From Sclerodactyla briareus (taxonomy: Eukaryota > Echinodermata > Holothuroidea > Dendrochirotida > Sclerodactylidae): a stretch of DNA of 64,000 nt. The stretch spans positions 310,001 through 374,000 of the forward strand of contig JAODTK010005221.1 in NCBI GenBank assembly GCA_026419785.1. Direction: 5' to 3'. Both the position numbers and the translations under genes were made by a program. The notes beneath the pieces were generated by a model, which saw only the letters and a program-made list of their open reading frames with translations, had not been told where the DNA came from and did not search any database. Shown piece by piece: positions 11,947 through 60,666 of the stretch (the stretch's first letter is position 1; the number at the start of each line of letters is the position of its first letter).

Positions 11947-12029
11947 CTGCTTTAACTCCCAGGGTTGAAACATCACAAACTTCTCATCTGACATCCACAG
12001 CACCAGCGCCTCCTGATTTTTCTCTAATC
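11947..12029 (-). CDS. Spectrin-repeat gene, exon (helix A)
   Basis: The 83-bp minus-strand segment follows the acceptor AATTTCACAG and is open in one frame throughout, reading LEKNQEALVLWMSDEKF and then VMFQPWELKQ. The pattern of heptad hydrophobics ending in a conserved Trp is typical of helix A of a spectrin repeat. The end is AAG CAG followed by GTTAGA, a weak donor. The preceding exon (15357-15749) ends in phase 0, which would need one more base here; a lost T in the first codons would restore phase, and this is an inference. Joined to that exon it reads ...EDKLK-(D)LEKNQEALVLWM, a natural passage from helix C of one repeat into helix A of the next. This is the most 3' exon I can support, so the gene probably continues below position 11900. 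Product: part of a rod domain in a cytoskeletal linker protein. Confidence 0.55.
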
Positions 12030-15000
12030 CTGTGAAATTCCAATTTGTTCACAGTGGGCATGTTTTAAATGTGGGGATGAATCAGAGTGGCCTGGGGGAT
12101 GTAGGTGGGTTAAGAGGAGTTTCATCATAACCAAGATGGCAAGACCTTAAGAATTTTAATAGAAAGGAGGTTAGCCAAGCTAGTCTTGGGTACCATTCGC
12201 AGAGTGGAGATGATTTGATTCTCCAAGGACCGCATTACCACCTTTACTATTTTACACATTAGGACCAAATAACAGTTAATACCTCAGCTACCCCCTGCTG
12301 CACCCACCACCTCAAGTGAAGAGGAATGGCAGTAGCAGTTCACATCCTTATAACATGTAGGTCAATATGTCAAAGTCTCATTAAATGTTGACAGATATCC
12401 ATTAACCTGATATTCCCTAGGAAACCTAGGGGCACCCCTCTACGCCCAGCAGAGGGAAAATTCTCATTGCTCCCACGTTAATGAGTGAACTTGAGGTCCA
12501 GCATTTTTTTTTGGATGGCTCCACCTTCTAGCCATGCTTTGAAACATTTCCTCATTTTTTTTTGGCTGGCTCCACCCTTCTAGCCATGCTTTAAAACATT
12601 TCCCCATACTCACCCTAATTATATGGGTAAAAGGGACTCCCCCCCCCCCAACAAATTGCTTCCAGGCCAAGGGTAGGGTTTAGTATAGTTTATGTCATAT
12701 CATGTCCTCCCCGAGGATGTTGGCTCTCATCAACAATCTTCTCTTAGGGAAGTGGATTCTTAAGGGCACAAATAATTAGAAATGATTAGCTCAGCTGGCT
12801 AGCATGTTATAATTGAATCATGCTGTACACATTACCAGTAGGAGCAAGAGTGACATTGACCTCAGTTACCAAATTCATGTTGATAATTGCTTGTTTTTAG
12901 GGAGGGAAGGTAGGCTTTAAGAGGCAGCTGTTTTAGTAGTCATTCTCAGGCTGAGCTTCTCTTATACTCTTATGTGCTGTTTATTTTCATGGACCAGTGG
13001 ATTATTCCAGTTGCTCAGAAACCTCAGGTCGAAGGTCACCTAGTGGGCAGATTTTTGTCCATTTGGGGAGAATTATATGTCAACAATAATTACCTATATT
13101 TCTGCAGATGGGATCATTGCCTTGTAGCAGAAGTGAACCAGCAATGCAGCCTTGTTTGATCAGCGTGGGCAGGTGGGTAAGTAGGTTTAGGTAGGTGGGT
13201 GAGCAGGTGGGCAAGTCAGCAGGTAGTACACTTTTACCAGCAAGCTCCACAATCCGGCTGAACTTGAACTTTAGGAATGTGGGTGAGAACACTGAAAATT
13301 GTATTCTGTTTTTGTTTGTTTCCCATTTGTGTAGTCCATTATGGCAGATACTTCTCTACTTAGCTAAATGATTCACAAATGCCCTCACAAATTACAATAA
13401 TTGGACAGTAATAATATCAGGCATTACGGAACAACCACAAAAGTGCAACTATTTTAATGATATGCGATACCTAAACAGACCACAAACAATCCCAGTCAAA
13501 TCTCCAAAATCGAAGCATATTTTTTTTAGGCTTTCGATGTAGGCTCTCAATTTTCTAAAACATTGAACTCAATCATAAATTTACTGGCCAGTTTCCTAGG
13601 GTGATGGGGAAAGCGAATATTCAAATAGATTTGTTATAGAAAATGATAACATGAGGGGAGGAAAAGATACTTTGCATGGTAGTGGTAGGACACCACACAT
13701 TTTAAGGTGGGATAGCTGGCAAATAAGTTATCACTGCTGACTGAGAGGGGTTCATTGAGGAGGAGGAGAGGGGGGAGGGGTAGCATTAATATGAAAGTGC
13801 ATAAGATCACATCTCTGACAAAATGCTTGGAGTACTGGCAGAAGCTCGGAATCAACTTAGGTCACTACCCTTGATTAGTTTGACACCTGGATTTGTTCCT
13901 TGATTTTTTTTTTCTTAGCCATAGCCTTGTTAAAAAGACTGTGGAATTGAAAGTAATATTTGGGACTGTTATTCCACTAATAGGAAGGGACACATGATCC
14001 GGAAACGATCCTCATGTTGATTTAATAGCCCAAAGACTTGCAGTGTTTCGAGAGAGTATATGCATTGGAAGAAGATGACAAAGAATGCGTGCTAGTGGCA
14101 GCCAATTCATAGTATTGAGGGCGGACAGGAAGAAGAAGAAGAAGATATGCATAACCTATTCACATCAGTTTTATGCCAACTAAAACAAAGGAAGATCACC
14201 AAACACTATTGGCAACACCTCCAATCATGCAGGAGATTGATTTATACAAAAGGTAGGAATGTGCATTCATGCAAACACCAACAACCACACGCACACACAC
14301 ACAAGCCACACGCACATTACATGTACCCTTTTTTATACGTACATCATAGTGCCTTTCCTACATTGGCTACAAAAATATATGCTAGGCACACAAAGTGGAT
14401 TAAAAGGTGAAGGTTAAGACTGGTGTAGCCTAAAATAACAAAAAGAAGAGATAAGCAAAAGGCCTATTGGAGCTGGTATCAAACCAATGACGTATGCAAT
14501 CTGTGATGCAAAGCCTATTAGGCACGCCTTCAAAGGATCTTAATAAGAACGTTGTGTTACAGTTCAATGCACTATACTGCCGCTCTTAAGGTTAATCAAA
14601 AGGCGGTGCTTCCAAAGCGATTATTAATTAGCTCAATCAGCCGCATAGTGATAAATGCCATCGAGATCACAACCACGGCGACGACAGTTGACGTAATACA
14701 CCATGGTTCGTGTGGCCTGGCAGGGACCGGGGCGGTTCAAGATAATAAAAACATTGTTTGGTCGAAAGATCATTTACATCTAGGTGAAGAGGAACTGTAG
14801 GGTCGCTACAATAAAGAGATTTTTGTTGTTGTTATAATTACTGTTACAACACCTGGTTTCACATTGTTAACACCCCAGGGCGTTATATACTAGACCTAGT
14901 TTGACCAGTTTACCAATCCAGGTCTTAAAAGGTGATTTTATTTTGGAATTTGTGTTAAGCATGGTATATAAATCCCAATTATCCTGGAAAGCATTGATAA

Positions 15001-15356
15001 TAGGGGCGTGTACCACAGCTATTCTCAGTCAGTAATGTAATATACACCATGACATCATGGTGAAGGATTTAATGATAGGTGTGGAAATAGACGAATGCCA
15101 TGGTTCAGGCTTTTATGTTATATATTCTAATTGCCCTGGAAACAATTCCAAAAGTGGAATATGCATGGAAACATGGGTTCCAGTTATGGACACAAACTGT
15201 ACCTAACAGGAGCTCCACAAACTGTGGCAAAGAGAAGGGAAGGTCCTTCTCAGAATCCTTGGTATGACTGAGAAGAGTTGACCACCGACCATCTACACCT
15301 GGGACTGGTGGGCCTTCTGCCAGTGACATTAAAGGCTAGTAGCTTCCCAGACTTAC
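12030..15356 (-). other. Intron-like stretch between spectrin exons
   Basis: No exon was recognised here. It holds C- and T-rich runs (near 12506, 12549 and 12642), an imperfect GGTGGGTA-type repeat (about 13168-13225), a short AGAAGA run near 14130 and a CA-rich stretch near 14283-14312. ORFs inside are short and unconvincing. It is bounded by a good donor (GTAAGT, from 15356 downward) and an acceptor (TTTCACAG) on the minus strand. Confidence 0.4.
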
Positions 15357-15749
15357 CTTCAGTTTGTCTTCCTGCTCAGAGAAGTATCGAAGGCACTCCC
15401 ACTGAGCTGAGGTGACTTCAGCTCCTCTGCCAATTTTGAGATGTCCTCCCTCAATTTCTCAGATCTGTGCAGTAACCATTGACCTCGAACTGATCTTTCT
15501 CAGACTCTGCTGCAGCAGCAGCGTATTTCTGCCTTGACCTCCTCCACCGACTCCCCACGCAACGTCTCAATCCCAGGTCGCCGGTACTCACGTGCGGAAC
15601 TTGGTCTGAAACGCCTTCCCTGCCATCGACGGTTCATTCCATCAAGGTGGGCTCCACCACCGGGCGTGCCCCCCGGCACCGGAGGTCAGCCCCATTCTGG
15701 CGGAGGCTGTCATAGTCTCGCTTCTTGTGCTCTAGTCCCGCTGTATGGC
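15357..15749 (-). CDS. Dystrophin/utrophin-like spectrin-repeat gene, large exon
   Basis: This is the clearest coding block. On the minus strand it starts after a strong acceptor (TTCCTTCTCAG) and ends at a strong donor (CTGAAG|GTAAGT). Translation gives, in order, HTAGLEHKKRDYDSLRQNGA (helix B), RPVVEPTLME and NRRWQ (helix C with its Trp), SAREYRRPGIETLRGES, VEEVKAEIR, AAAESEKDQFEVNGYCTDL, then AQWECLRYFSEQEDKLK (next helix C). The reading frame shifts near 15636, in the CTG/CAG run near 15510, and near 15455. Each is a small indel, so either the assembly is noisy or the exon is decayed. From memory, the KKK...VR..G..L...GA..VEPT...RW..I.SKF pattern matches the dystrophin/utrophin rod near repeats R16-R17. 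The protein would link actin filaments to membrane complexes. Another spectrin-repeat family (nesprin, MACF/dystonin) is possible. Confidence 0.75.
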
Positions 15750-16039
15750 CTGAGAAGGAACGAAGGGATTGGTTGGATTATCCACACATGACCTTTTGTT
15801 GTAGTCAGTGCAGGATTGCATGGCCCCCACTGCCAGGATAGCAGAGTAGGCTATAGATGGTATTCATATCATTGAAGAGCAACATATAACAAGAACACGC
15901 AGTGGTTAGAGGCCATAGTCAGACTGCACAGACAGAATTCTACAGATCCTAGCATTATTTCATTGTTGAGTTACTCACTACTTTCAATTTACCTCTGAGA
16001 AATCTCTGACATCACAGGGGACGGTGGGGGCAACGCTGC

Positions 16040-16790
16040 CCATTGACTCTTTACAAACCAATGCTATATTTTTGCAACCTGGATTATCAGAACTATAGCC
16101 CCCGCTTCGAGTTGTTAGCTCACCCGTCACAAATGTACCAAACACAAACGTACAATTTATGTGATAAACCAGGACCTATACTGCCTTGGGCTCTTATATT
16201 GCTAGCCAACACCGAAGGTATGGCTATTAGACCATCATTATGACTAAACATCGCATCATGCAACAAAACTTGTGGATGTTCAAGATTTGGCAGTATTTCA
16301 AATGGAAAATGGGCCCTATGCCCGACTGGGCCCTGAGCCCACATTTCCCGAACACTCCCAATGGCCCTCTACCCATAGACCATTCATTATATGTAACTTT
16401 GAAGAAAATATTAAAAAGCTGTGGGAAGGCTGCATCACAGTACCTTGTGTAACATTCATAAAATGGGCCCTCGGATCAAAGTGGGCCTGGGCCGGAAATT
16501 CCTGAACACCCAGAGGTACGGGCTTCGACCACATTATGACTGAACATCGTTCTGTTGCACCAAATTTGTAGGAGAAACATTTGAATTTTAAACATGAGGT
16601 CCTTATTGCCCCTTAATGAACCTTTGATCTTGACCTTCAACAACGTCCCATGGTTTGCATGACATGGTTGCCAGTTTGGTTGACATCCATCACAGAATTT
16701 TGTTTGGGGGCCAAAAAGGCAACTGTTGACACACTCCACTCACAACAGACACGGACAGACAGACAGATCGATAGAATAGACAGGCAGTGG
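16040..16790 (+). repeat. GGGCCC-type dispersed repeat, copy 2 (shorter)
   Basis: It shares the phrases GGCTATTAGACCATCATTAT, ATGGGCCCTCGG, CCTGAACACCC and TGTAGGAG with copies 1 and 3. It ends in a degraded (CAGA)n stretch (about 16746-16790). It lies inside an intron of the spectrin-repeat gene. Confidence 0.7.
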
Positions 16791-17477
16791 GGTTTGAGGT
16801 GGTATTCGATTTCTCTTTTGGCCTCCTGAAATAGAGGGGAATGAGCATATTATGAAGTTGAAGCCAACTGATTGGGTTGTTCGTGGCACATTGAGAAGGA
16901 ACTGCAGTGTTAATAGGCATAGACTTTTTATTTTTGACAAGATTTTGTCACTACGACAAGTCAATGACGGCCTGGTAAATGAAAAGGGCATGTGGAACTT
17001 TGGCTAGACACTTGGTGGTGTATGGTTCAATATGAGTAGGCAGAGTAATGTGGGAGGATTACTTACACCTTCGTTTGACCACGCTAATAATTGATACTAA
17101 CAGGAGGATAGTAAACCACAGTATATATTTCACAAACCCATTTAAATTCAAACTTGGGGTTCCCTGTTCGAAGGGGTCACTGGTTATATTGTTAGTCAAG
17201 TCCCCATTTAAATGCCACTTCCTTCATCTGAAATTACTGGCTGCTTAACGTCGGGTCCTCTGATATACCTGGGTTGGCCATCGCTGTGATATTGAATCAG
17301 AGGGGCCTGCTGGATAGCGGCAGACGCCAAAACATAATGTCACTAATGGATTGGTTCAACATCTGGTCCTGTGGATAACATTCACAATGCATCGGGAGTC
17401 AAAATACAACAGCAGAAGTTTATACGACGACTGTGATACCCCTTACTTTGATATAGACTCAATACAAGTGCAAGTCG

Positions 17478-18422
17478 GAACAGCTTGGTAGCTGCGGACA
17501 GCAAAATTCCCATGGCGAATACACTGCATGTTTTTCGCCATTTCACATTATTGTTGGTTCACATTTAATGACCTCTACTGACATCTGTCATAATCATGGA
17601 ATGAGTTGGAACATGTCTATCACATTGGCCTAATATTTGCTATCAGTGCCCAGCAACAAGTAGAAAGCACAAACTATTTCTAAGCCTGTGGCAACGCGAA
17701 CGGAAACACATGCTTCCCACAGAAATGAATATCTGACATTGTTGACACTCATAGTTATAGTTGAACCACTCTAGAAATAATATACAAACAAGGTCACAAG
17801 TTACCATTAAACAGCATTTAGGTGGGGGGGGGGGGGGGGAGGGCCAAGCCACCATTGGCCAATGATGTGAAAGCTTTCTGTGCCCACAAACATTTCTAGG
17901 TCACCAACGAGAAATTGGACCGAAATGTAATGTAAACAAATCCTGCAGAGGCAGGGACTAATGTAAACTAGGGCCAGATGTGATGAAAGACAATTCATCT
18001 TCCCCTGGACTATGGGTTTTATTGTCAACTAGGCTGCAGACCTGGACCTTCTGACAGATAAGGTAAACACGGCTCTGCAGAGAAGTAGAAGGATGAGTAG
18101 AGTAATGTAAAACAAACTTGTCTCGCGTCAGAGAGCTCAAATTAAAGTTGGAAATTGGGGTAGGGTGGTAGGGTATTAATTTGGATTTAAATAACATCTA
18201 AGTACCAAATGGCACAATAAAATGTAAACATAAGGCTAGCATTAGCAAGCTTCATCCACCTACCAAAGTTCAACCTAATCGCATTACAGTTTAGAGTATG
18301 AATGAACGTGACGAACGAAGGAACGAAAAAACTAACGAACGAACGAAACGAACGACACGGTCGGAAGGAGAGAAATGATGACTTGCAGAGCTGTGGGAGG
18401 GAGCTGCTCTCCCACAGCTAAT
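17478..18422 (+). repeat. GAAC-ending dispersed repeat, copy 1
   Basis: It starts near AGCTGCGGACAGC and ends with a (GAAC)n-like tract (18305-18360) and the inverted repeat AGCTGTGGGAG...CTCCCACAGCT (about 18390-18420). A G run (17823-17840) interrupts it. Copy 2 lies at 43.8-44.5 kb. Confidence 0.65.
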
Positions 18423-18522
18423 AATGTATACAGGTTACTATGGCCAAACCAGATGGCTCAGGGATTCAATACATCAAAATCTCATGAAGATGATCTTTTC
18501 AACATTGTTCCAATTCCCTCAC

Positions 18523-18574
18523 CTTTGCTGATGTTTGCTGTTTCTCTCAAATCTTTCAATTTCCCGTATAGTGT
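18523..18574 (-). CDS. Spectrin-repeat gene, short exon
   Basis: A 52-bp minus-strand exon candidate. It reads TLYGKLKDLRETANISK and ends with a single G before a donor (AAAG|GTGAGG). The acceptor is TTGCATCCTGAG, with only a modest pyrimidine tract. The single trailing G plus the first two bases (GC) of the exon at 15749 make a glycine codon and lead directly into HTAGLEHKK, so phase and sense agree across the 2.8-kb intron. The joined peptide looks like the end of helix A and the start of helix B of a spectrin repeat. Being so short, it rests mainly on this junction agreement. Confidence 0.45.
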
Positions 18575-20593
18575 CTCAGGATGCAAAAGTCACCAGGGCT
18601 TTTGATTGGTGCAACCACTGGGCTGGATGAGGGTCATGACCTTGAGGGTCTCCATACATACATAAAAATAGCTCAACACTCTAATGAACCCCTGCCCCCA
18701 CCTCTAAACTTTCAATGGTTGATTGTGCCCATGCTTATAATACAATTAGATTATATCTGATTGAGCAACAGGCTTAGAACGATTCCTCACAAATTGAAAT
18801 CGCTAAACGACACTGTGTTGAGCTGCTGCTAACATACTCAGCAGGATTAGTGGATTGCATATTGGTTTCTATGTCAGGGGTAACATCTGTAAATACACCA
18901 ATGATGTAATAGGGGTGCCAAGATGTATAGCATACGGTAATCTCATTTACAGAGTACCCGGTGACAAAAACCCTAGCAGTAATAAAAATGTAAAAAACAG
19001 CTTTATCTTGTCTGGTCTTTATTTTGCTTGTATGTAGCGAAACAAAATTTACATGACTATAAACCAAAATGGTGAGGTCAGACATTCCCTGAACATATCG
19101 GACGAAATGGAATCAATACTGGCTGATCCTCCACAAGAATAGTAACAGATGCAGGCCTAATTACCTTGTCACTATGTCAACTCTGGGGGATTGGAGGACC
19201 CTTCCAATTTACCAATTTTTCATGCCCGGTTGAGAAATTCTGTTCCAGCCTTCTTGAAGGACTTTGTACTGGAATATTGATATTGATCTGTATGCCAAGC
19301 CAGAACGCAGCGGAAATCGTGGACACAGTATCCAGCGCTGATGGGAGAAAACCAATGGATGAAGGTATAAGCTCCCCCGAAGCGTGAAATACACTTAACA
19401 CCATTTGGGCACTGAGCAGGACGTTTATGATTACCCCTGGTTTAATTGGCTGGAGGAGAGATGTATTGGCTTGAAATGGATGCAGCTTGTATAATACTAC
19501 AATCACTTATTAGGAGGACTGCTCCACATGTAAAGAAGACACCAATGGTGCCAGAGCATATACCCGAGGGGCGGAAACAGTTACAAAATCAACAGCCAAA
19601 CTGCCAGGAGGTTACACCGATAGCAAGGATCAAAGTATTACATACTGACTTTTTATATTTGATGAAGATTGCAGAGCAACTGCGGTAGCGTTCTGTGTCA
19701 GGGCTATACCTGCTATCTCTTGGTTATATTTCAATCTGATTGATTTTGACTGATATCAGGATCAAATTTGATTTGTGGAGGCAATAAAAAAGGATTGTTT
19801 GACAGTAACGCTATGTCTAGGTAAAAAACTGTTCAACCAACCATGCACCTAAAAACCAAAAAATTAGGGAACATCATACAAGTGGTGCCAATATTATAGC
19901 ACTTCAGAAAGAATTGGTAGAATTTTTGGGCGCCATCCATAGGACCATCCCTCTAGCAGGAGCCTTTTGTTGGCCTACTGCATGGGTGACGGGATTGTCG
20001 ATTAATTTTGTGATTACAGAATATATTTTGTGGTGGCTGACCTGCTGTACGTCCTTCTTTTTGTTAGCACTTACCCTACTAGATTGTCTTGTATACTGTC
20101 GATCGGTTTTTTGGCTGTATGTGTATTCTGTATTACGTGTGGTGGAGATTGGCTACTGGAGAATGGTGCAGCTCTTTGAAAATGAACTTATTGATATTCA
20201 TTTTGAGCAAGTCGGATTGGGGTAAAACGAGTGGTGATGTCTCCAGTTCAGGGCGGTTCGGGGCTATTGAAGTGGTACCCTTATGCAGGTGGTGTGCCTT
20301 GCACAGACCACAATTCATAGTAAAGAGTTGTGTTGTCCTCCCCAGGATAGTAGCTCAGTTTTGTGATTTTGGATGTTACTTTGTTCATAATCTGGTGCTG
20401 TGATCTGATTCTGGAACACACAGGAACTGGACCAGGTGTTCCTTACATTATATCTTTGCTTTGGTTGTTCTTCCAGCATGCCTCCTCGTAAGTTAAAACG
20501 TTATGTTTTTCTCCCTCCCCCTCCTCCTGTCCATAGATGAAGGGGTACACTGTCCTCTCTGAGTCCTGGGTTATTCCCAGGCTAGATGGCAAC
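18575..20593. other. Intron-like stretch, no confident gene
   Basis: Overlapping ORFs of about 60-110 codons occur on both strands at 18774-19085, 19166-19506 and 19446-19688. The minus frame at 19177-19506 has hydrophobic stretches, but all three frames are open over part of it and no splice structure or family signature decides between them. Chance ORFs of this size are common at this base composition. No repeat was recognised. Confidence 0.3.
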
Positions 20594-20722
20594 CCTCCCA
20601 ACAGTTAGCATTGAGTTTTTCTCTCTTCTTAGCCAGGTGGCATGCCCCACCCTGTCCTGGGCATCGATGGCTTCAGATTGCTCATTCAGGGTCAGGTCAG
20701 TATTAACCCCTTCTCTGGGGTG
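20594..20722 (-). CDS. Candidate spectrin-repeat gene exon
   Basis: On the minus strand, after GATATTGTAG, an open frame reads GVNTDLTLNEQSEAIDAQD followed by RVGHATWLRREKNSML. The composition (charged, helix-forming, with a Trp in a helix-A-like context) fits the spectrin rod and would sit just upstream of the exon at 18574. The donor is uncertain: ACT|GTTGGG at 20602 or GGGAG|GTTGCC near 20593, neither strong. The opposite strand is also open (about 73 codons), so the strand assignment rests on composition and neighbours only. Treat as a candidate. Confidence 0.35.
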
Positions 20723-38475: not shown

Positions 38476-39345
38476 AACCATTGCACAGTATTGAAAACTG
38501 CTGACAGGGACGACACCTAACGTTCAGTCAATGAAACCATCACAATGTACTGTGAACTGCCGACAGGCACGGCACTTAACTTGCAGTTAACCAAACCATT
38601 GCACTGTATTGTAAACTGCTAACAGACATGACACTTAACTTGCAGTTAACCAAACCATTGCACTGTATTGTAAACTGCTGACAGGGACGACACTTAATGT
38701 GCAGTTATTCAAACCATTGCAATGTATTGTGAACTGTTGACAGACACGACACTTTACTTGCAGTTAACCAAACCATTGCCGATGTTTTTTTTTTTTTTTT
38801 TTTTTTTCTTTTTTTACTCACCCTTGCCGGACAAAGGACTCTACCTATACGAGGCCCGGCAAGGGTGCGACCTGGATAACCGCAACGCATTGTCACGCGA
38901 AGCACCTTCACCAGGTACACGGAACAAGGCGATGCCTCTTTTGCGGTACTTAATGTGAAGGAGGGGGTACTTACACGCCGACGGCAACTAATTCACAGAG
39001 TGCCTACCCCACATTTTTGCCCTGTTCCTATCCCTCATGCTGATCGTCAAGCGAGAAGGCCAACAGGTCCCATTTTTAAAGTCTTTGGTATGACCCGACC
39101 GGGATTCGAACCCCCCTACCGGGTGAAAGCGGACGCTCCTACCAACGTGCTAACCACTCGGTATAATGTATTGTATTGTAAACTGCTGACAGGGACGACA
39201 CTTAATGTGCAGTTAACCAAACCATTGCACTGTATTGTAAACTGTGACAGGGACGACACTTAATGTGCAGTTAACCAAACCATTGCACTGCACTGTAAAC
39301 TGCTGATAGGGACGGCACTTAACAGGCAGTCAACCAAACTATTGC
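38476..39345. repeat. 59-bp satellite, 9-10 copies, split by a SINE
   Basis: Units start at about 38476, 38535, 38594, 38653, 38712 and 38771 and contain ACCATTGCACTGTATTGTAA, ACTGCTGACAGGGACGACAC and AATGTGCAGTTAACC. About three and a half more copies follow at 39164-39345. The array is interrupted between AACCATTGCCGATG and TAATGTATTGTATTG by the SINE annotated separately. Confidence 0.9.
38785..39163 (-). mobile_element. tRNA-derived SINE with poly-A tail, inserted in satellite
   Basis: Read on the minus strand it has a tRNA-like head (TACCGAGTGGTTAGCACGTT, then box B GGTTCGAATCC), a body of about 300 bp, a 12-bp perfect inverted repeat (CACCCTTGCCGG...CCGGCAAGGGTG) near the 3' end, and a poly-A tail (poly-T at 38785-38806 on plus). 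A second copy lies at 51.25 kb and an older one at 54.66 kb. No clear target-site duplication was seen. Confidence 0.8.
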
Positions 39346-40265: not shown

Positions 40266-40297
<32 letters not shown>

Positions 40298-44689: not shown

Positions 44690-44988
44690 CTCCATTTTCC
44701 CTGCATCTCCATTAGATCCTTCACCGTGCCTCAACATCGTTATCCATTCACACAGAGCGAGGGCGCCCCTCTCAAATTCTTATACTCAGGCACGACTGTT
44801 TCAGATTATTGTTTCCTATGGTCCGCGCCATCTGGAGTCTTTCCAATGGACTGCTGAGTCCTTAAGTCCAATTCTAACATCCCGAGCGAGCTGGGCTCGT
44901 CCACCGCCCGGGTTCCTCCAGGAGTATCTCCCCACGTGCATGATTTGCTCAACGTCGAACCTGATTATTTGATCGCCTCCTCAGTTTC
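44690..44988 (-). CDS. Spectrin-repeat gene, exon
   Basis: A minus-strand block between acceptor TTCTGCACAACCACAG and a textbook donor (TGGAG|GTGAGTGAG). The frame starting GAA ACT GAG GAG (ETEEAIK) carries two stops but otherwise runs through VDEPSSLGMLELDLRTQQSI, GKTPDGADHRKQ and SETVVPEYKNLRG. It then shifts frame to DNDVEAR and again to VKDLMEMQGKW, ending in a helix-C-like Trp. Helical, charge-rich sequence with this terminal Trp fits a spectrin repeat. The upstream exon candidate (45339-45436) ends in phase 0 and agrees with this start. The stops and shifts could be base-call errors or decay. Alternative: a second acceptor ATAATCAG inside the exon would remove the first stop. Confidence 0.5.
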
Positions 44989-47416: not shown

Positions 47417-47569
47417 CTTGACATTAGCCTCAAGATCAGTCTTAAAGTCTTCAGGTGTCAAGTCTTTGTTCTCCTGTAGCCGGTGATCGCAGAGCTGATG
47501 GCCTTGAGGTCTGCTCTAAGACTAGATGGTAGTCGTTGACCTTCTTCCTTTGAATGCGGTGCTCCTCTA
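47417..47569 (-). CDS. Spectrin-repeat gene, exon
   Basis: 153 bp on the minus strand between acceptor TGGCTTCACAG and donor GTCAAG|GTGGGTGAG. Read in the phase left by the exon at 50831 (two bases, AG) it gives SRGAPHSKEEGQRLPSSLRA, then DLKAISSAIT. After a small shift near 47480 it reads RLQENKDLTPEDFKTDLEAN and VK. An alternative frame from the start reads EEHRIQRKKVNDYHLVLEQ, also helical. The heptad-like hydrophobic spacing and charge are typical of spectrin repeats. A single unit of the 65-bp minisatellite found at 48.5-49.1 kb lies about 70 bp further up. Confidence 0.55.
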
Positions 47570-47637: not shown

Positions 47638-47682
47638 GGACAACTATTTTGATGCGTGAAAATTAGTTCAATGGGAGCCAGA
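47638..47682 (+). repeat. Single partial unit of the 65-bp minisatellite
   Basis: It contains ACAACTATTTTGATGCGTGA and AATTAGTTCAATGGGAGC, matching the array at 48537 but ending at a GAGTAC-type repeat. Confidence 0.85.
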
Positions 47683-47689
47683 CTCGTAG

Positions 47690-48530: not shown

Positions 48531-48536
48531 GATGGG

Positions 48537-49075
48537 AGCATCCACATATGTGGCACCTCATGGAACAACTATTTTGATGTGTGAAAATTAGTTCAATGGG
48601 AGCATCCACCATATGTGGCACCTCATGGAACAACTATTTTGATGTGTGAAAATTAGTTCAATGGGAGCATCCACCATATGTGGCATCTCATGGAACAACT
48701 ATTTTGATGTGTGAAAATTAGTTCAATGGGAGCATCCACCATATGTGGCATCTCATGGAACAACTATTTTGATGTGTGAAAATTAGTTCAATGGGAGCAT
48801 CCACCATATGTGGCATCTCATGGAACAACTATTTTGATGTGTGAAAATTAGTTCAATGGAAGCATCCACCATATGTGGCATCTCATGGAACAACTATTTT
48901 GATGTGTGAAAATTAGTTCAATGGGAGCATCCACCATATGTGGCACCTCATGGAACAACTATTTTGATGTGTGAAAATTAGTTCAATGGGAGCATCCACC
49001 ATATGTGGCACCTCATGGAACAACTATTTTGATGTGTGAAAATTAGTTCAATGGGAGCATCCACCATATGTGGCA
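48537..49075 (+). repeat. 65-bp minisatellite, 8 full copies plus a partial
   Basis: The unit starts AGCATCCACCATATGTGGCA and ends AATTAGTTCAATGGG. Copies begin at 48537 (one base short), 48601, 48666, 48731, 48796, 48861, 48926, 48991 and 49056 (partial). They differ only at a C/T site (GGCACC or GGCATC) and a few other bases, so the array expanded recently. 65 is not a multiple of three and no frame is kept open. Confidence 0.95.
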
Positions 49076-49133
49076 GGAAGGAGGGACCATGCTCGTCCTT
49101 CTAGGCTGAGGGCCCATGATAGGATGGTATATA

Positions 49134-50830: not shown

Positions 50831-51012
50831 CTGTCGATCTTCTCAACCACCGGGTAGCACCCAGGAATCTGGGGCTGCTGTTCATGATGGTGTTGCTCTC
50901 CAAGAGGACGTCACTGTCCAGTCTTTCATCTCTGCCTTGCCTGCTCAGCTGCTGCTTCCAACTCAAGCTTGTGCCTCCGCTCCGTCTCCAGCTCACGGAC
51001 GATCTCTTCTTG
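50831..51012 (-). CDS. Coiled-coil exon of the spectrin-repeat gene
   Basis: On the minus strand a pyrimidine-rich tract ends at the acceptor AAATGAAG, followed by an open phase-0 frame: QEEIVRELETERRHKLELEA, AAEQARQR. After one-base shifts come DERLDSDVLL and GEQHHHEQQPQIPGCYPVVE, KIDR. The first part is a strong, highly charged alpha-helix or coiled coil; the second is a His/Gln/Pro-rich linker. The upstream exon at 56849 ends in phase 0 (RWEDICQKIK), so the two join in frame as a long helix C. The donor is weak (CGACAG|GTCAAC). Rod interruptions of this kind resemble hinge segments in dystrophin-type proteins; a different coiled-coil gene cannot be excluded. Confidence 0.5.
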
Positions 51013-51249
51013 CTTCATTTGTTGGTTCGAACAAAGTGAAATGAGAAGGAATCTTTAAACATTCATTTCCACAAGATAAATTTCTGCGCCCTATGTTGAT
51101 AGGAGGAAATTTTGTCATTGAGTCTCCCCGAATCGTCTTGACTTTGTGGCAAGAGATAGACCTGCTTTTGGTTGACAACGTTTTGAGCTCATCACTGACA
51201 AGTAAAAGTGAATCATTCTGTCAATCATAGTTTTCTAATCAACACCAGC

Positions 51250-51624
51250 TTTTTTTTTTTTTTTTTTTTAACCATCACTGCCCGGACAAAGGACCCTACC
51301 ATACGAGGACCCGCAAGGTGGCGGACCTTGATATATCGTCACGAATTGTCAGCGCGAACCCTCACCAGTACACCTGAACAAGGGCGATGCCCTCTTTTGT
51401 CGGTAATTAATTGAAGGAGGGGGTACTTACACCCCCACGGCAACTAATTCACGATTGCCCCCCACATTTTTGCCCTGTTCCTATCATCCCTCAATGCTGA
51501 GCAGCCAAGCGAGAAGGCAACAGGTCCCATTTTTAAAGTCTTTGGTATGACCCTACTGGGATTCGCTCCCCGGCCCTACCGGTGGAAGCGGACGCTCTAC
51601 CACGTGGCACCATACCACTCGGTA
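51250..51624 (-). mobile_element. tRNA-derived SINE, second copy
   Basis: It has the same layout as the copy at 38785: a poly-T start on plus (51250-51269), then CCGGACAAAGGACCCTACC, the shared body (AAGGAGGGGGTACTTACAC; TTTTTAAAGTCTTTGGTATG) and the tRNA-like head ending CCACTCGGTA. The inverted-repeat stem is partly mutated and several bases are missing relative to the first copy. Confidence 0.8.
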
Positions 51625-51904
51625 AACTTGCACCTTGGTCCCATCGCAAACTCAGAGTCTCATTCTCCTACACTGGCTTGATTTAAAAATTATTTATCAT
51701 TCTCTCCCTCTCCCCGTTACCACAACTTTGTAATGACAGGGTGTTCCTATAACGCACTGTCATATGTCACGGACATGTCTTGTAACAACTAAACTTAGAC
51801 AACAGCAATAAATATACCAAGCTCACATTTTTAATATTATTGAAAGGTTTGTGATCTTATATGGATTTCAGAGGGCCAAGCTACTCTCCAGATACTCATG
51901 AGTA

Positions 51905-52945
51905 ATAAAAATGTACAAGGCGATCGCCAAAATGTCTCGCCGGGGTTGCACTTCGTGGTCGTATATTCAACTACAAACCAACCAACTAGTTCATGCAGAC
52001 CATCTTCGTCAAACGAACATCACATATTTTCACAGAGAACCATCCCCAGTAAAATATAGGAAAGAAACATCTAGAGTAATTTTTCTTCAATCACTAATCA
52101 CAATGGTTGGGTAAGATAGGGTTTGCTTGTGGGCAGCTTATAACATCAATAAAACTGTCACAGGAGCTATGTTTACTCGTTCCTCAGTGCTTCATTCTAA
52201 CAGGAGCTATTATATGATGGAATTCCAATCAAATTCCTGAACATCCAACACAACAGATCCATAAAATGTTAACAGACTATACCTACTGAGTTTTGCAAAT
52301 TCTTACCAAGTTGGGAAACATTTGAATAAATTATGCAAATTAGGCACATACAATGACCTCTAATAACCCCAGCTGTACTTTTTTAAATGATCAGGATCAA
52401 GGTGGATCCAGCTACCAGTTTTGTGGGAATCCAACAAACTTTCAAAAATTGCATCAATTATGCACATTTGAAACATTAAATGACCTCCAATGACCCCGAC
52501 TTCACTTTTAAATTTCCTCAGGAACCATGGTAGAAGACCCACATCCACCAAGTTTCGTAAAAATCTGACAAACTGGAAAAATTAGACCACCTAATTAGCA
52601 TATTTTAGGCTGAAAACTATTCAGAAAAAAAATCCATCTACCTTCATCCATGCCTACAATGTCAACTACATCACTGTAGCATAGACGGTTCTTGTGTAAT
52701 CTGCTACGACTTAAAAACAATATATTACTGAAACACTAATTACCCAACTTAATGACTTGCCTACCACCCAAAATCTAATCAGATTCCGTGACACCCAGCC
52801 CCTGTGCTACACACAAAATTTTTGACATACGGCCTCATGGTTTGTGAGAAATCCTGCTAAAACAAAAAGTGTGACACACACACCACATGCCAGAGCGACC
52901 AATAAGTCTCTACCTGAATTTCATTCAGGCAAACAATAGTCAAAT
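51905..52945 (+). repeat. Modular 'TGCAAATTAG' repeat, copy D (full length)
   Basis: It begins AAGGCGATCGCCAAAATGTC, the same head as copy C. It has three or four modules with TTATGCAAATTAGGCACAT and AATGACCTC phrases, then the common tail (ATCTAATCAGATT, CACACACACC, AAGTCTCTACCTGAA). Copies C and D together define the ends of the family. Confidence 0.7.
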
Positions 52946-54659
52946 TTATTCTATTTCCATTGGTTCAGAAAAGCTGATTTAGGCTCAACAAGGATCCGGA
53001 CTGTATGTTTGTAGATCAGCATTTTGCTCCTCTTCTTGACTATTGTTCTCATGCAGGGGTGTAACGAATTTCCACCTGCTCCTTAGAATGCTGAAGGACA
53101 ATCAGTGAAGTTGAGTGAATCACTGGGGGTCCCATCACCAACCATCAACTTTTTTTGGGTCTCCATACATAACCTCCTCTTGTCGTACAAAACGTTGCTT
53201 AAAACTACTTTTCACCCCACTCCACAACTTGCTTTGGGGCCTCAACTTTCAACAAGTGCATGATTGCACCCTTGCCTGTTGCATGTTTTCATCTAGACTA
53301 TGCGTACTTGTGTAACTGCAAAATGGCCTGCGTATTCCTCCATCATGACTCTGCATCATGAGTTTATTCTCTTTTCTTGGCATCCCTTTAATGCACCTGT
53401 ATCAAAATGTCAAAATGCTTTCCAGCCCTCTCTGCCGAACCATTACCAGTTCATAATTTCCTGTCTACATATCACTCACCATATTTGCAGAAATTGTTAA
53501 CTTTTATATTGTTTCCAACTGGGTCCTATAGCATTGCATCCCATGTTGACTGCATTCACTGCAATTCGGTCCACGGTGGGTTGTGAGTTATCACACTCCT
53601 CCAAACAAAAATAATAAAAGCGGGAAAATCAACCATCTGAGAGAATAATTTTAATTTTGCTTGAAGCTTCAATTTTCCTTTGGCCTCAATCTCCTGCACA
53701 TCCCAGTAGCAATGTAATTGACTTTAGCTCACTGGGGACCTCATGGCAAATTCTTATCCTTCTTTAGTTTTCGTAAATCTTATCATTGGATCAGGCTGTA
53801 TATTGATCAACAGATCACTATTGACTGTGGCATGCACTCATCTCATTGCTAATAAAGTTGGGCATTACATTACAGAAAGGAACTGTCCCATTGACTTATC
53901 ATGGCACTCGGATTCTCATCATACATTTCTGTGCTGGATTCACATGCAAACTTTGGGTGGGGGGTTTTATCCTAAACCAGAAATAGCTTTATCATCCTTT
54001 AATTGGATTCCTGGGCAAACCGTAGCCGAGCTCACACTTATGCCACCCAGGCAAAGTTGGACAACTGCAGGCTCGAAACTACTGATGAGAAATGGAAACT
54101 GTATCTATAGGTCCAAACCCCATTTCAATACCCTGTTCTATGTGGAGTTATTGGTCTCAAAGTTTTGGTCAATTATGCGGGGAAATTTTCATCTTGGACT
54201 TCTTTCGAATCAATCAATATCAACAATACTGTCTTCAGTCCAGTGGTTCTCATGAATATTTGAAGAACTGAAACTTTCTTTTCTCTCTCCCTTCATCTCT
54301 AGATGGATGTCTCTTTACATGGGTCAACACCATTCACATTCTTCACATCTTCTGACATCCAAAGTAACTAGTTCAAACTACCAGCTTGGCACCTAATGGT
54401 CACTCATGTCCGTTTCCGTTGTAGGGTCTTACTCATTCAAGGTGGCATCATTCCATGGTTGATACTTGTCTGAAACTAACCTCTTCCATTCTCACTCAGC
54501 AAAGAGTGTTTGTGGCTGAATTATTCAAGATGCTTGAAGCATGAAATACTGAGGATTCCTTATTCCCACTCTATGCTGTGCTCTTGAGCAAAGCACCTTT
54601 TTTTCCTTGTGTCCGCTACCAGTTAGGCAGCTGGAGGATCTTGTCAAAATGCACCTTTC
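52946..54659. other. Non-coding stretch apart from a 170-codon ORF
   Basis: Besides the ORF at 53743-54255, a minus-strand donor-like CAAATATG|GTGAGTGAT near 53480 follows a short helical-looking frame, but the exon cannot be closed without several indels. Nothing else seen. Confidence 0.25.
53743..54255 (+). CDS. Longest ORF of the window, 170 codons, unknown
   Basis: The longest uninterrupted frame here, starting MANSYPSLVFVNLIIGSG. It has a hydrophobic start and no recognised domain. There is no clear splice pattern or promoter. On a rough stop-frequency estimate, about half a frame this long is expected by chance in the window. The complementary strand holds AGTCAATGGGA-like sequence also seen near 39.77 kb and, in a variant form, near 27.68 kb, which hints at an old repeat rather than a gene. 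Confidence 0.2.
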   Translation: MANSYPSLVFVNLIIGSGCILINRSLLTVACTHLIANKVGHYITERNCPIDLSWHSDSHHTFLCWIHMQTLGGGFYPKPEIALSSFNWIPGQTVAELTLMPPRQSWTTAGSKLLMRNGNCIYRSKPHFNTLFYVELLVSKFWSIMRGNFHLGLLSNQSISTILSSVQWFS

Positions 54660-54976
54660 CTTTTTTTTATGATATACTCTCCAAGCACACAGAGGATCAA
54701 ACCTATTCAGCAGTGCCACCCAGCAGGGTGCATGCAACCTTGGATATTGCCTGATATTGTCAGCTGCGAAGCCTTCACCTATAACAATAAGGCAATGCCT
54801 CTTTGGCAGAAACTCAACTTGCATATTGCCTACCCCTCATTTGTCCCTGCTCCAACCTTGTGCTGAGTCAATCAGCAAGTACCATTTATTAGGTCTCTGG
54901 TAGACCTGACTGGGATTCAAACCCTGATCTTCCGGGTGGAAGGCCGACGCTCGACCATGCAATTGGTGCACTCGGT
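54660..54976 (-). mobile_element. tRNA-derived SINE, diverged copy
   Basis: It starts with a T run on plus, shares GAAGCCTTCACC, GGCAATGCCTCTTT, TTGCCTACCCC and GACCTGACTGGGATTCAAAC with the other two copies and ends CACTCGGTAA. The shorter poly-T and greater divergence suggest an older insertion. Confidence 0.7.
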
Positions 54977-55148
54977 AAAGATAACCTGGGCCTTGCATAG
55001 ATTTGATCCATTCCCTAGCAAGTATATTAAGATTCATTTCAAAGATTCCACATTCATTCTGGTAGGAGCATATATACAAATGCAAAACACTCAAATCCAG
55101 CCCAGCGTTTATTAGAACATTGATCCGGGGAACTAGCACATTGTATGA

Positions 55149-55313
55149 ATAGATATGCATATGTCAAAGGCACATCGTATGGATAGATATGCATACGTCA
55201 AAGGCACATTGTATGAATAGATATGCATATGTCAAAGGCACATTGTATGAATAGATATGCATATGTCAAAGGCACATTGTATGAATAGATATGCATATGT
55301 CAAAGGCACATTT
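55149..55313 (+). repeat. 34-bp minisatellite, 5 copies
   Basis: The unit is ATAGATATGCATATGTCAAA then GGCACATTGTATGA, with copies at 55149, 55183, 55217, 55251 and 55285. It contains the palindrome ATATGCATAT. The first copy has CATCGTATGG; the second has GCATACGTC. Confidence 0.95.
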
Positions 55314-55429
55314 TACCAACAAAACCAATGGGGGCAGAAAAGCATCTACTCTTAACTTTTGAAAGAACATCATCATTTAATGTAAATCAAGGGGTCATTT
55401 TTTCGTTTGTTTGATCATCAAAGATAATA

Positions 55430-56525
55430 ACAAGAGCACCAATGGTGCTGTAGCTCAAACCGCACAAATATACCATGACGACTGTAGAATTATGTGGTAA
55501 TGTTCAAGATAAGGAGGCCAAGAAGGCAGTTTCAAGCATTCCTATTGTGCCCATGTAACAACCTTTGACACTGATCTTCAGATGGCCAAAAATGTCTTAG
55601 GTCAATGAACATTGTTCTCACTTTTATCAACATCCAGTGAAGAATGCCCAATTGAGCAAACGGTAATTTCACCAATGCCTATTGACCTCTGACCTTGACC
55701 TTCACAGTCATCCATCCCATTCTTGAAATAACGGTTTTGCTTCTCTTCATCAGATGTTACTGTTTCATTCTAACGACACATTGATGTTTTGCGTGTCACA
55801 ATCTGGCAAACCCTAGGTCCCACATGACCTCCATCCAGCAGTTCGTAAACACTCCTGATGGACCACTAACCGAAAGTCATTACATGTAACTTTGAAGAAA
55901 ATCAATTGGATTTTGTGGGAGGAGTTGCATTTCGAGTACCATTTTGTGAAATTTCATAGAATGGGCCCTCGGGCACAAGTGGGACCTTGGAACGAAAATA
56001 CCTGAATACCCCAAAAGGGCCCACACTATGCCTTGGGTCCCAAGTCCTGGGCACTCTGAAGTACACTATAGACCACCATTATGACCGGACATCAGCATGG
56101 TACAACTAGATTTGTAGGGGATACAAGTTTTAACAGTATTTTATATAATTGTCCCTAGCCAAAATTCTTGTACAACCCCTATGGCCAATCTACCCAAAGA
56201 CCATTACATGTAACTTTGAAGAAAATCAATTGAAGCTTGTGGGAGGAAGGAGATGCATCCCAAGCATCATTGTGTGAAATATAGAAAAAGGGCCCTCGGG
56301 CCCAAGTCGGACCTTGGAACAAAAAATCCTGAACACCACAAAGGCACGGCTTTTAGACCATCACTATGACGGAACATCAGCACTGTGCCACTTAATTTGT
56401 AGGAGATACAATGTTTTGCAGTGCTTGAAATAATGGGCCCTTTGGCCCCAACTGGGCCCCGGGCCCAGAATTCCTGAACCCCCAATGGCCTCTACTCAAG
56501 GAACACTACCGGTACTTTGAAGAAA
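55430..56525 (+). repeat. GGGCCC-type dispersed repeat, copy 3
   Basis: It begins ACAAGAGCACCAATGGTGCT and contains two successive modules (near 55900 and 56228, about 325 bp apart) with the same phrases as copy 1. It runs directly into a (CAGA)n(TAGA)n microsatellite, as copy 2 does in degraded form, which suggests the microsatellite is the element's 3' end. Confidence 0.75.
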
Positions 56526-56527
56526 AC

Positions 56528-56575
<48 letters not shown>

Positions 56576-56578
56576 TAT

Positions 56579-56650
<72 letters not shown>

Positions 56651-56651
56651 T
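56526..56651. repeat. (CAGA)n followed by (TAGA)n microsatellite
   Basis: About 12 CAGA units are followed without a break by about 18 TAGA units, at the end of the GGGCCC-type repeat. Confidence 0.95.
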
Positions 56652-56848
56652 TAATTAGAGTGCATGGGCATCACAATAGCTCAACCAGCATAGCTGGTTT
56701 GAGCTAAAAATTTCAACAAAATTCTGTTTTGGAGCGAAGTCTGATTTTCTTTTTCTTTCAAAGTTGGTAAAAAATGCATGTGCACTTTTATCCGGATATT
56801 AGCTTCCATTAAAATGCTCATGTCAATCTTTCCACAAAGTGGTTTTAC

Positions 56849-57008
56849 CTTGATTTTCTGGCAGATGTCCTCCCATCGCTGGTTTAGGGCTTCAGGTCTG
56901 GCCTCGGCTGATCTCCGGCAATCCCCTCCCTGCTCCATTCAACTCATGGCCCGTTCTCAAAAAGAACATCCTCCACCTCGGGCAAGTCACGTACTCCTCC
57001 TGCAGATG
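56849..57008 (-). CDS. Spectrin-repeat gene, exon with helix-C Trp motif
   Basis: 160 bp on the minus strand. The acceptor is excellent (CTCACTATTTTTCCAG) and the donor usable (ATCAAG|GTAAAA). It reads SAGGVRDLPEVEDVLFENGP. After a small shift near 56945 it reads EQGGDCRRSAEARPEALNQR followed by WEDICQKIK. The sequence LNQRW followed by ED.C..I is a hallmark of spectrin-repeat helix C, and the part before it matches the helix B end plus loop. The first phase requires one base from the previous exon, while the 60561 exon leaves two, so at least one more exon probably lies between 57 and 60.5 kb; I did not find it. Family: rod domain of a dystrophin/spectrin-type cytoskeletal protein. Confidence 0.7.
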
Positions 57009-57311
57009 CTGGAAAAATAGTGAGAGAGACCTGACTTTGCATCTTATTGTAATGCACTTTCACAAATGCACTGAGGCGCTTTACAGATTTTACTCTGAAT
57101 ATGTATATGATATCACTCAAGCAATCTCCCAATACGTTTTCACCTGCCAGTACCGTGTGGGATGTACTCACAGATCCAATTTAGCACCGGTGTGGGGCAG
57201 AAGAATTCGCTTGCCCCAAGGACATAGTAGGAAGCCACTCCACCTTCACAGGTTCAAATTTCAAACTAATTCTCTCTCCCCAGCTAAGCTGATTTTCAAT
57301 GGTGAGGGATG

Positions 57312-57490
57312 GCCCTATTGTTAAACTGATGGGAGTGAAAGCATTGGTAACCTGAAGGGTGGTGGCTTGTTAAACTGGAAGGAATGGTGGCATTGTTAAA
57401 CTGGAATGGATGGTGGCATTGTTAAACTGGAAAAGATCGTGCAGTGTTAACCTGGAAGGATTGCACCTTGTCCAACTGGAAGGATTTTTG
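57312..57490 (+). repeat. Minisatellite of about 27 bp, roughly 6 diverged copies
   Basis: Units share GTTAAACTGGAA, then GGATGGTGGCATT. The outer copies are diverged (GTAACCTGAAGG; GTCCAACTGGAAGG). Confidence 0.75.
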
Positions 57491-57769
57491 TTCTCTATTC
57501 CAATAATTGATGCTCAACACGCGAATGATAGATATAGGCTTCCGTGGAGTCCATTCAGCACGAGTATCCTCAAAGCCCTCATCCCATATCATTCCATACT
57601 TTGTGGGGGTCTGCCCACTGACTACCTTATCGTGAATTGAAGCCTTCCAGCAACTCCTAGGCTACGAGAATAATGTCTGTTCAAGTAACCCTAGCCATGT
57701 GACCCAGCATTCCTCCATCCCACTACTCCGACCAGGACAGCTTCATAATAGATCCCCCACACACTGTAG

Positions 57770-59060
57770 TGTTTGTTGATATTATGGTTTCGGGGGTGTA
57801 GCCGCCGTCTCCGCTGGCCGCCCGCCGCTCTGGAAACTTTAGGCGTTTAGCGAGATAACTCTTTAAAAACAACGCTTTAATCCGATCGTCTGAAACCTTG
57901 GTACACATAGTCCGTCCTAGCGAATCTTGGTGAGTTTCGAAGTGGCAGCACTGCAAAAAAAAAAATGGTTGCTGGCCCTCTACTTTGCAAGGTTTGGAAC
58001 GACAAAACAGGTTGTTCCGAATTGCATGACATTGGTGGGTGGGTGGGGACCAAAAGATGGTCCGAAAAACATAACGATGATTTCAAGGTCCCGGGGGGGA
58101 GGTCAAATTCACGCGTTTTATAGTCGAGATTTTTCTGACTTCGTCATTTGAACGAAAACTTGGAGAATGTGAATTACAGTTGGTCTGGAACAACATGTAT
58201 GCATTACAAGTCAACCAGAGGTCAATTGGACATAACTTCAATGTGCTTCTCAAAAGATGTCAACAAAGGCCATTTCTCTTGGATATACACTTCGGCGGTT
58301 TACCCCCTCACATGTCAGTTCAATGCATTGAGTCTGCAGCACCATACAGCAGCACAATTGGTGTGATTCACATCCCCTGTGTGACAGTATAATGTCTTCA
58401 TATATCACCGTGGTTGTGTCGTCTCGGCTCTGCCGGAACTCTAGCCATCAGCACAATACCTCTTTAAACACTTTATCCTATTGATCCAAACTTGGTAAAA
58501 CGTACGTCCACCCTAACTCTTAAAATTTCATACAGTTCAAAAGGGACAAATCGCTGCATGTCTGCCGCCCTCTATTCGCAGGTTTAACACGAAAAAATGA
58601 AATTAGTCTGATTTACACAAAACTATGTGGGTGGGGACAAAAATTGTCCCGAAAAACATTGACCGATTTTTTCAAGGTCACCAGAAGATCTATTTTGTTC
58701 ATTTTGCAAAATAAGGTTATTCTGATTTGATGACACTTTGGTGGGGGGAAGGACAAATTTGTGTCCAAATTTGTGTATTTCGCGATTTTTCTAACTTTGT
58801 TCGATTTGGAGATAAAAATTGGTGCATGTGGACCTGTTTATTAGTCCTAAACAATACGAAAGTCATTTTAAGGGCACAGGAGTTCAATTTGCATAATCAA
58901 TGTTTATTCTTTAACTTGTCATATTTAAACAGAACTTGGAGGAGTGGACTACAGTTGGCCCTGAAACAACAGGTCCGTCATTCTCAAATTCACTGGTCAC
59001 ACTGGAGGTCATTTAGATGTATATGTGGTTCCGCTAACGAGGTCCAAAAAGGCCTTCCTG
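57770..59060 (+). repeat. 'GTGACTTGAAATTACC' repeat, copies 2 and 3
   Basis: It starts at the GC-rich block (TGTAGCCGCCGTCTCCGCTG) and continues with TTGGTACACATAGTCC, GGTGGGGACCAAAAGATGGT and TTTCAAGGTCCC. A second, diverged copy starts near 58417. Both end with the shared phrase ACAGTTGG...GGAACAACATG (58168) and ACAGTTGGCCCTGAAACAAC (58950). The 159-codon plus ORF at 58727-59206 lies mostly inside it and is not credited as a gene. Confidence 0.6.
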
Positions 59061-60560
59061 TGGGGAAGACCTGGCAGTTTACCTTTACCCGTCTGCCCTT
59101 GTCTAAGAATAGTTTGTATCTCTTTCCAAGTAGGCCCAGTGGATTGTTACTCCCCGCCCTTACAGCAGTGTTGGCAGTCAGATTCTTAAGAGCCCCTGAT
59201 CTTTAGTGTCCTATTCTGTATGTAGGAAATGTGTGGTCAAGGTAAATTCATCTCTTGAGTAGGACAATTTGCTGAAATGTTCTTACAAAGGCTATTATAC
59301 AGGTAATTGAGGATAGAGGACAGCACATCTTGTGCAGGTTTCTACATCTAATGTGACACACTACTGTTTTATTGTAGGCGCACCTACACGTCCTAATTGA
59401 AGTGATATGGTCACCATGGCAACTGTCATCATGAGAGACCGACCATTACATTATAATCGCTCACACATTGTGTAGGAGGGAGGCATTCCCTCTGACAACG
59501 AAAATACCACATTTATGACAACAATGACAACATCGTGTGCCACCACATCAATCGCATTACCTCTTTAAACCGTACATAACCAACTATCACTGAGAACGGT
59601 GATCTGTGTGCGGCCATGGATTGTTTATTTAGGGACAGCAATTCATACTAGATTATTTGTAGTCCAAACAACCAAAATTTGTCTATCAAGGAAATCAGAG
59701 GTCATTTTCGATGTGTGTGTATATTAGGAACCATGTACCATAGACTTGAGTGATGCTGGAATTCAAGGCCCGGGCCCATGAGAATCCGATGACAGGAATC
59801 AGAAGTCGTTTCCATGAGGCATGAGCTCAATTAGACCCAATAAAGTACCCAATGTGAATTGGGCAATTGCCAATGCAAGTCCCCCCCCCCCCCAAAAACA
59901 CACAGACAGGCACTTATCCCATTATACCTTTTGAGTGTGCAGGGCGCGTACCAAGAGATTTGTCTTGGGGGGGGGGGGGGGTTGAGATCGAACCCATGGG
60001 AAGTGCACCTCATAAATGGCCTCCCCTCCCTATTGGCGAATAATTACAAGAAGGGCCCCTAGATACATTCTGCTGCAATATTTGGTAGATAACATCTGCA
60101 AAACTTCTACTGACAAATCAAAAATCAGGTTTTGGGTTACATGTATTGATCCACTTGGCATGGGGTTTTTGACCCCAAATACCCCCACCCCATGCCCCGT
60201 GGGTATGCCACCGTGGATGTAACAGTCCCTAATACCCTGGTCCTTTCTCTTTACCGACATAACCTTTGGATTACCATACCACGTCATTAGGTTAAAACAA
60301 GTTACATTTCTTTTCTTTTTTTTCTTGAGTTATCGGTTTTGTATGGTTAGTTCATCTTCTCCAATGAGCAGTTGGGAAAGAGTTATTTGACTTAAGAGTG
60401 AATCATGTCTTTGAACTCTTTCCTAAAAGACTTGACACCGACAGTAGCGCTTATCCGATTAAGTGCACAACTCTAGACATCTATCCAGACTGTTGCTTTT
60501 TCCTCCTTATACCCCCTGTATGAAGCAACCTTTTATAGAGTCGACCTCCCTCCTTGGTAC
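59061..60560. other. Non-coding stretch
   Basis: C and G runs near 59881 and 59967 on plus. Short ORFs only. No exon was found here, although the phases of the flanking exons suggest that one is missing between 57 and 60.5 kb. Confidence 0.3.
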
Positions 60561-60666
60561 CTGAGAGTCCGTGACATGCCTCTGATTCGGCCCGCCTTCT
60601 TCTCTGCTCTGTCCAGCCAGTCCTTGATTTCAAACGGAGGTCTATCTTGAAACTTGTTCACTTGGT
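60561..60666 (-). CDS. Spectrin-repeat gene, exon (helix A)
   Basis: 106 bp on the minus strand between acceptor GGGCTAATCAG and donor ACTCTCAG|GTACCA. After two leading bases it is fully open: QVNKFQDRPPFEIKDWLDRA followed by EKKAGRIRGMSRTLR. The F.I.DWL..AE motif is the standard start of a spectrin repeat (helix A with the conserved Trp-Leu). No frame shift is needed. It is the most 5' exon recognised, so the N-terminal part of the gene lies beyond position 64000 or in exons I could not see. Confidence 0.65.

Follow-up and report, generated by a model that had tools for sequence, protein, structure and literature searches.

A putative dystrophin rod exon and a second spectrin-repeat exon, both broken in frame, in genomic DNA of Sclerodactyla briareus

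Spectrin-repeat exons on the minus strand

The window analyzed here is a stretch of 64,000 nucleotides from the holothuroid Sclerodactyla briareus (GenBank assembly GCA_026419785.1, contig JAODTK010005221.1, positions 310,001 to 374,000), and all coordinates below are those of the window. Its minus strand carries two exons whose similarity to spectrin repeats exceeds chance, located at 15.7 and 57.0 kilobases (kb) (Table 1). Most likely, this strand holds a section of an animal dystrophin gene that codes for the central rod, represented by an exon for rod repeats R15 and R16 and by a spectrin-repeat exon 41 kb upstream. The repeats of the dystrophin rod link cortical actin to the dystroglycan complex of the membrane. 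A preliminary description, prepared from the letters alone, had proposed at least eight spectrin-repeat exons on this strand between 11.9 and 60.7 kb. The exons at 15.7 and 57.0 kb stand out beyond chance, two further segments are borderline, most of the others score at chance, and the proposed set as a collinear series lacks support.

Because the proposed exons have no single open frame, a frameshift-tolerant protein-to-DNA aligner was used, purpose-written for exons that are closed in any single frame. Plain tblastn had failed too: human dystrophin searched against the window gave nothing below E 3, and the exon at 15.7 kb ranked third at E 11. The human dystrophin query was compared with PDB chain 9c3c_D and matched it over a 499-residue stretch that takes in R13-R17. 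Controls consisted of the opposite strand, reversed queries, and dinucleotide-preserving shuffles. Individual segments were scored with a spectrin-repeat profile and, as a second measure, with the dystrophin query, each against 60 shuffles per segment. A second series of 40 shuffles per segment involved dystrophin, utrophin, and the profile.

When human dystrophin was aligned to the whole window, its best match fell at 15746-15357 and covered residues 1915-2039 with a score of 82, versus 55, 63, and 55 in three controls. Human exons 41 and 42 joined as a query scored 107, versus controls of 53 and 46, with splice sites adding up to 10 to the score in observed and control runs alike. This alignment spans residue 1914, directly after an AG, to residue 2039, directly before a GT; without splice terms, the whole-window alignment keeps the end at 2039 and starts one codon inside. 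The signals flanking the exon are the acceptor CTTCTCAG and the donor AAG/GTAAGT (slashes mark exon ends). When the exon is slid along dystrophin, it scores 116 at residues 1915-2039, 66 at the next distinct place, and 64 with the reversed query. Its score of 101 against dystrophin compares with a shuffle mean of 53 and a best shuffle of 70 (0/60 reach 101, z-score 7.7), and in the second series with a best shuffle of 66 (0/40). No shuffle among 60 reaches its score against the spectrin profile (z-score 4.7).

This exon begins where human exon 41 begins (c.5740) and ends where human exon 42 ends (c.6117), both limits being in phase 0. Two papers give the human DMD boundaries as c.5739/5740, c.5922, and c.6118 in intron 42 (PMC8534830; PMC3061890). 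The likeness to human exons 41-42 thus comprises an alignment over the full stretch of residues 1914-2039, both outer limits, and the phase, whereas the intron that separates exons 41 and 42 in human dystrophin is absent here, and the exon is weakly similar in sequence and frame-broken as written. The weakness of the similarity to human would by itself suggest an invertebrate source. These comparisons support its assignment as a dystrophin exon. It would encode the end of R15 and the start of R16, because that is where its match falls in the order of dystrophin repeat domains; it had previously been placed near R16-R17.

Several results weigh against this assignment. Resemblance to dystrophin and utrophin had been proposed, and only the former is clear: utrophin, a related protein, scores 63 on this exon versus 101 with dystrophin, and 2 of 40 shuffles reach 63 (best, 67), leaving no clear match. 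The joined reading has dystrophin 9c3c_D as its best PDB chain (residues 1918-2039, E 0.018), but the match is modest and apolipoprotein A-I comes second at E 0.021; a Pfam search of the exon gave no match. A profile averaged from dystrophin and utrophin, which is less sensitive than dystrophin alone, scores only 61 there versus a best control of 55, and it scores nearly as high (59) at an unrelated-looking site, 57358-57158. Since the PDB match is modest and Pfam is blind to the exon, its identity as dystrophin rests on the place of the match, the exon limits, and the shuffles.

The exon at 57.0 kb lies between the acceptor TTTTCCAG and the donor AAG/GTAAAA. Its joined reading matches Pfam family PF00435 with E-values of 4.3e-4 and 2.5e-4 (21.2 and 21.9 bits). 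The curated cut-off of 29.9 bits is not reached by this exon, which holds part of one repeat only, covering profile positions 53-96 or 57-96 of 105, or helices B-C. Against the spectrin profile, it scores 56 versus a shuffle mean of 23 (0/60, z-score 9.6). In a profile scan of the whole window, the top three minus-strand scores (59.5, 58.5, and 55.3) all fall in the two exons, the 58.5 being that of the exon at 57.0 kb, and the best controls are 44.8 (six shuffles), 42.5 (plus strand), 39.3 (reversed strand), and 52.2 (complement strand). By these measures of similarity, the exon is a true spectrin repeat, beyond chance.

Its position in the rod is less distinct; a match that is most dystrophin-like at one specific place is found for the exon at 15.7 kb only. 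No shuffle among 60 reaches the dystrophin score of the exon at 57.0 kb (z-score 3.3), and placement along dystrophin gives 55 at R17, 53 at R4, 52 at R13, and 50 at R1. For two of these repeats, the alignment begins exactly at a human exon start, namely exon 45 in R17 (56 versus controls of 41 and 38) and exon 37 in R13 (52 versus 42 and 42). Upstream of R15, a placement at R13 would keep the order of the repeats, and one at R17 would break it.

Table 1. Spectrin-repeat exons and candidate segments on the minus strand of the window
Feature	Coordinates	Strand	Basis
Dystrophin exon (supported), end of R15 and start of R16, equal to human exons 41+42 joined; frame-broken	15357..15749	-	Alignment, exon limits, shuffles
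Possible exon, best place R11-R12; borderline	44690..44988	-	4/60 shuffles reach score on both measures
Proposed exon; at chance alone	47417..47569	-	Shuffles reaching score: dystrophin 25/60, profile 21/60
Spectrin-repeat exon, helices B-C; frame-broken, position in rod ambiguous	56849..57008	-	Pfam PF00435, profile shuffles
Possible helix A segment (EIKDWLDRAEKK); borderline	60561..60666	-	Profile 0/60 shuffles, z-score 2.4; dystrophin 2/60

Collinearity along one dystrophin

Whether the proposed exons follow one another along a single dystrophin was addressed by spliced alignment. With residues 1640-2060 and an intron penalty of 30, the path runs through 57.0, 47.5, 45.1, and 15.7 kb and scores 117.6, versus at most 84.4 in controls. 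Other runs with dear introns gave 141.6 versus 108.4 and 162.5 versus 126.8. When introns are cheap, the path is stuffed with short chance exons (196.2 versus at most 165.8, and 264.5 versus at most 236.9). The segment at 47.5 kb enters the spliced path as R14, in a portion of the path that is non-specific.

Other alignments are not specific for a collinear series. Human exons 36-40 aligned to the DNA upstream of 15750 score 73.7 (intron penalty 24), which is equaled or beaten by one of 25 shuffles (79.9), by the reversed query (76.2), and among other dystrophin stretches (53.8-88.0). With dearer introns, the same alignment gives 61.7, versus 77.0, 70.2, and 67.9 in controls. The whole rod as a single query scores 243.6 on the minus strand, below the 251.2 of the reversed query, and a search for an exon downstream from that at 15.7 kb found none. 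Given the non-specific alignment upstream of 15.75 kb and the higher whole-rod control, a resolved exon chain from R13 to R16 was dropped. According to a review, dystrophins from outside the vertebrates show poor conservation of spectrin repeats 12-17 (PMC10293626), and human queries may therefore be blind in this region. It is plausible that the proposed exons are collinear along one dystrophin, and likewise plausible that a giant gene fills the window, as the preliminary description had held for most of its length; the exon order that it expected a frame-tolerant search with dystrophin and utrophin to recover gained no support. Its pairs of adjacent exons with agreeing intron phase went unconfirmed, phase being unreliable with insertions and deletions (indels) around. 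The splice dinucleotides that it named are present at those ends, although AG and GT are common anyway.

In the reading we favor, the exon at 57.0 kb probably belongs to the same gene as that at 15.7 kb, from which it would be separated by long introns. Alternatively, it could derive from another spectrin-repeat gene and lie outside the dystrophin fragment. Its similarity is generic, being far stronger to the profile than to dystrophin (z-score 9.6 versus 3.3); in PDB, a beta-spectrin chain (E 0.14) lies close behind dystrophin (E 0.088), and 9 of 40 shuffles reach its utrophin score. We nevertheless consider this origin unlikely, as the exon lies on the same strand as the exon at 15.7 kb and on its upstream side, and its alignments begin exactly at the starts of human exons 45 and 37, even if only the R13 placement is in order. 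A more radical alternative is that the match at 15.7 kb itself reflects chance or a different spectrin-repeat protein. The modest PDB E-value and the missing Pfam match would fit such an explanation, which is nonetheless highly improbable given that none of 100 shuffles over the two series reaches the observed score, that the match falls at a specific place in dystrophin, and that both limits are human exon limits. The eight PDB matches listed for this exon include none of nesprin, MACF, or plectin, in a search of PDB chains only.

Frame breaks and their possible causes

The preliminary description had called most of the exons too short or too frame-broken to appear as ordinary open reading frames, and indeed neither of the two well-supported exons stays open in any one frame, the frame changing several times within each. 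The exon at 15.7 kb has about three to nine breaks, depending on the price assigned to frame changes. If a frame change and a stop cost the same, the reading requires nine frame changes and no stops; if frame changes are dearer, it has three frame changes and one stop. The letter sequence as written could not encode a functional rod. This failure to stay open bears on whether this copy works, and not on its descent.

One explanation is that the breaks arose as indels in the assembly consensus and that the animal itself has an intact gene; another is that they are genuine and the locus is a decayed dystrophin gene or duplicate. Simulations of both processes (60 trials per setting, with scores that depend on an assumed 40%-50% identity to human) separate the two causes poorly. 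Simulation with indels only yielded no stops and at least seven frame changes in 5%-43% of trials, and exons given a mean of eight one-base indels reproduced this pattern in 35% and 43% of them. Under neutral decay, the corresponding range was 0%-33%, which counts weakly against decay and is not decisive. Mean simulated scores were 189-262 with indels only and 61-218 under neutral decay. At 116, the observed score falls inside the latter range and far below the former, so that an intact protein would need to have diverged beyond 40%-50% identity.

The tandem arrays of the window offer another gauge of assembly error. Six of nine arrays have five indel bases in 1,432 bases, and the youngest two have one in 721. 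Two old, diverged arrays have 5 indel bases in 121 and 33 in 735, and the ninth, being a T run, cannot reveal any; the total for the nine arrays is 43 in 2,387. The low rate in young arrays argues against assembly indels and for decay, and the alternative reading with a stop also counts for decay. On the other side, the preferred reading of nine frame changes without a stop fits assembly indels, and canonical splice sites are retained at both ends of both exons, contrary to what decay would predict. Unprocessed pseudogenes of genes so large are rare, which we also count against decay. Taken together, assembly indels are a serious possibility that falls just short of an even chance, and genuine breaks seem a more tentative explanation. 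It is doubtful, more specifically, that the dystrophin locus or a duplicate of it has decayed in this lineage while its exon limits kept their agreement with the human ones.

If the breaks are assembly errors, the locus adds a further dystrophin gene to those known, one that standard gene prediction would overlook in this assembly. Should the breaks be genuine, a broken dystrophin copy would inform the question of when this gene can disappear; according to a review, most of the animal kingdom possesses it (PMC10293626). On the present evidence, and as long as the breaks are not shown to be genuine, the locus is an unremarkable fragment of a gene already known. Exon boundaries of the dystrophin family are described in another study as changing slowly (PMC1790709), and the two matching limits agree with that description, whichever cause the breaks have.

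Other segments and repeats in the window

The borderline segment at 45.0 kb, aligned over 44988-44706, finds its best place at R11-R12 with dystrophin (58; second, R19, 56), and utrophin gives the same best place (56; next, 47), with reversed queries at 45 and 49. Placement at R14-R15 was also considered; R11-R12 scores better, and both placements are insecure. PDB, searched to an E-value of 10, holds no match to the segment; Pfam gave none either, nor any for the helix A candidate at 60666-60561. The remaining proposed exons score at chance: shuffles reach the dystrophin and profile scores of 51012-50831 in 36/60 and 8/60 cases and those of 18589-18523 in 30/60 and 17/60, and 45480-45339 is reached by 31/40 with dystrophin, 26/40 with utrophin, and 12/40 with the profile. 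The segment 12060-11947 is at chance on two of three measures (utrophin 31/40, profile 19/40; dystrophin 1/40). Segment limits at 45.3, 18.5, and 11.9 kb were partly set by us, the preliminary description having given one end of each.

Additional minus-strand profile matches at 16714-16646 (43.6) and 23420-23325 (42.8) score about as high as the best whole-window shuffles (44.8) and could be missed exons or chance; their z-scores of 8.1 and 7.4 are inflated because the segments were chosen as top matches. A profile match at 37.3 kb (43.8) reflects poly-lysine encoded by a run of T. The minus-strand match of 57358-57158 to C-terminal dystrophin residues 3261-3320 (56 and 59, versus best controls of 63 and 55) is likely chance. 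The CH domains and the WW, EF-hand, and ZZ parts of the dystrophin query had no match clearly above controls in the window, and in a gene this large such end domains need not fall inside it.

The longest open reading frame in the window has 182 codons, about the chance length (173-179 in three simulated sequences), and Pfam searches of 10 of the 14 longest listed frames returned two matches below the cut-off (E 0.006 and 0.11), neither usable. A scan of the window for RNA genes found no tRNA and no Rfam family at gathering score. Searches for kin of 15.3-15.8 kb in plasmids and of 38.4-39.7 kb in phages gave nothing useful, as did searches with two repeat patterns in viral contigs and with one in genomes of bacteria and archaea. 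Viral contigs also yielded a single 15-residue match to a portion of the exon protein, taken as chance.

By its composition, its repeats, and the lack of RNA genes or long open frames, the window resembles animal nuclear DNA. G+C content ranges from 38% to 45% in 2-kb steps, and tandem arrays are present, three of them nearly indel-free: 48532-49075 (unit of 65 bases), 55136-55312 (34 bases), and 38476-38779 (59 bases). Copies of a dispersed repeat family at 7172-8021, 16344-16473, and 55841-56509 are 60%-86% alike over 40-70 bases, and the family is probably a mobile element or satellite of the genome. A second dispersed element occurs at 38935-38996, within a 127-codon open stretch that has no Pfam match, and at 51391-51452, the two copies being 82% alike over 62 bases. 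Runs of G or C of at least nine bases number 21 in the whole window, versus fewer than two expected from a first-order model.

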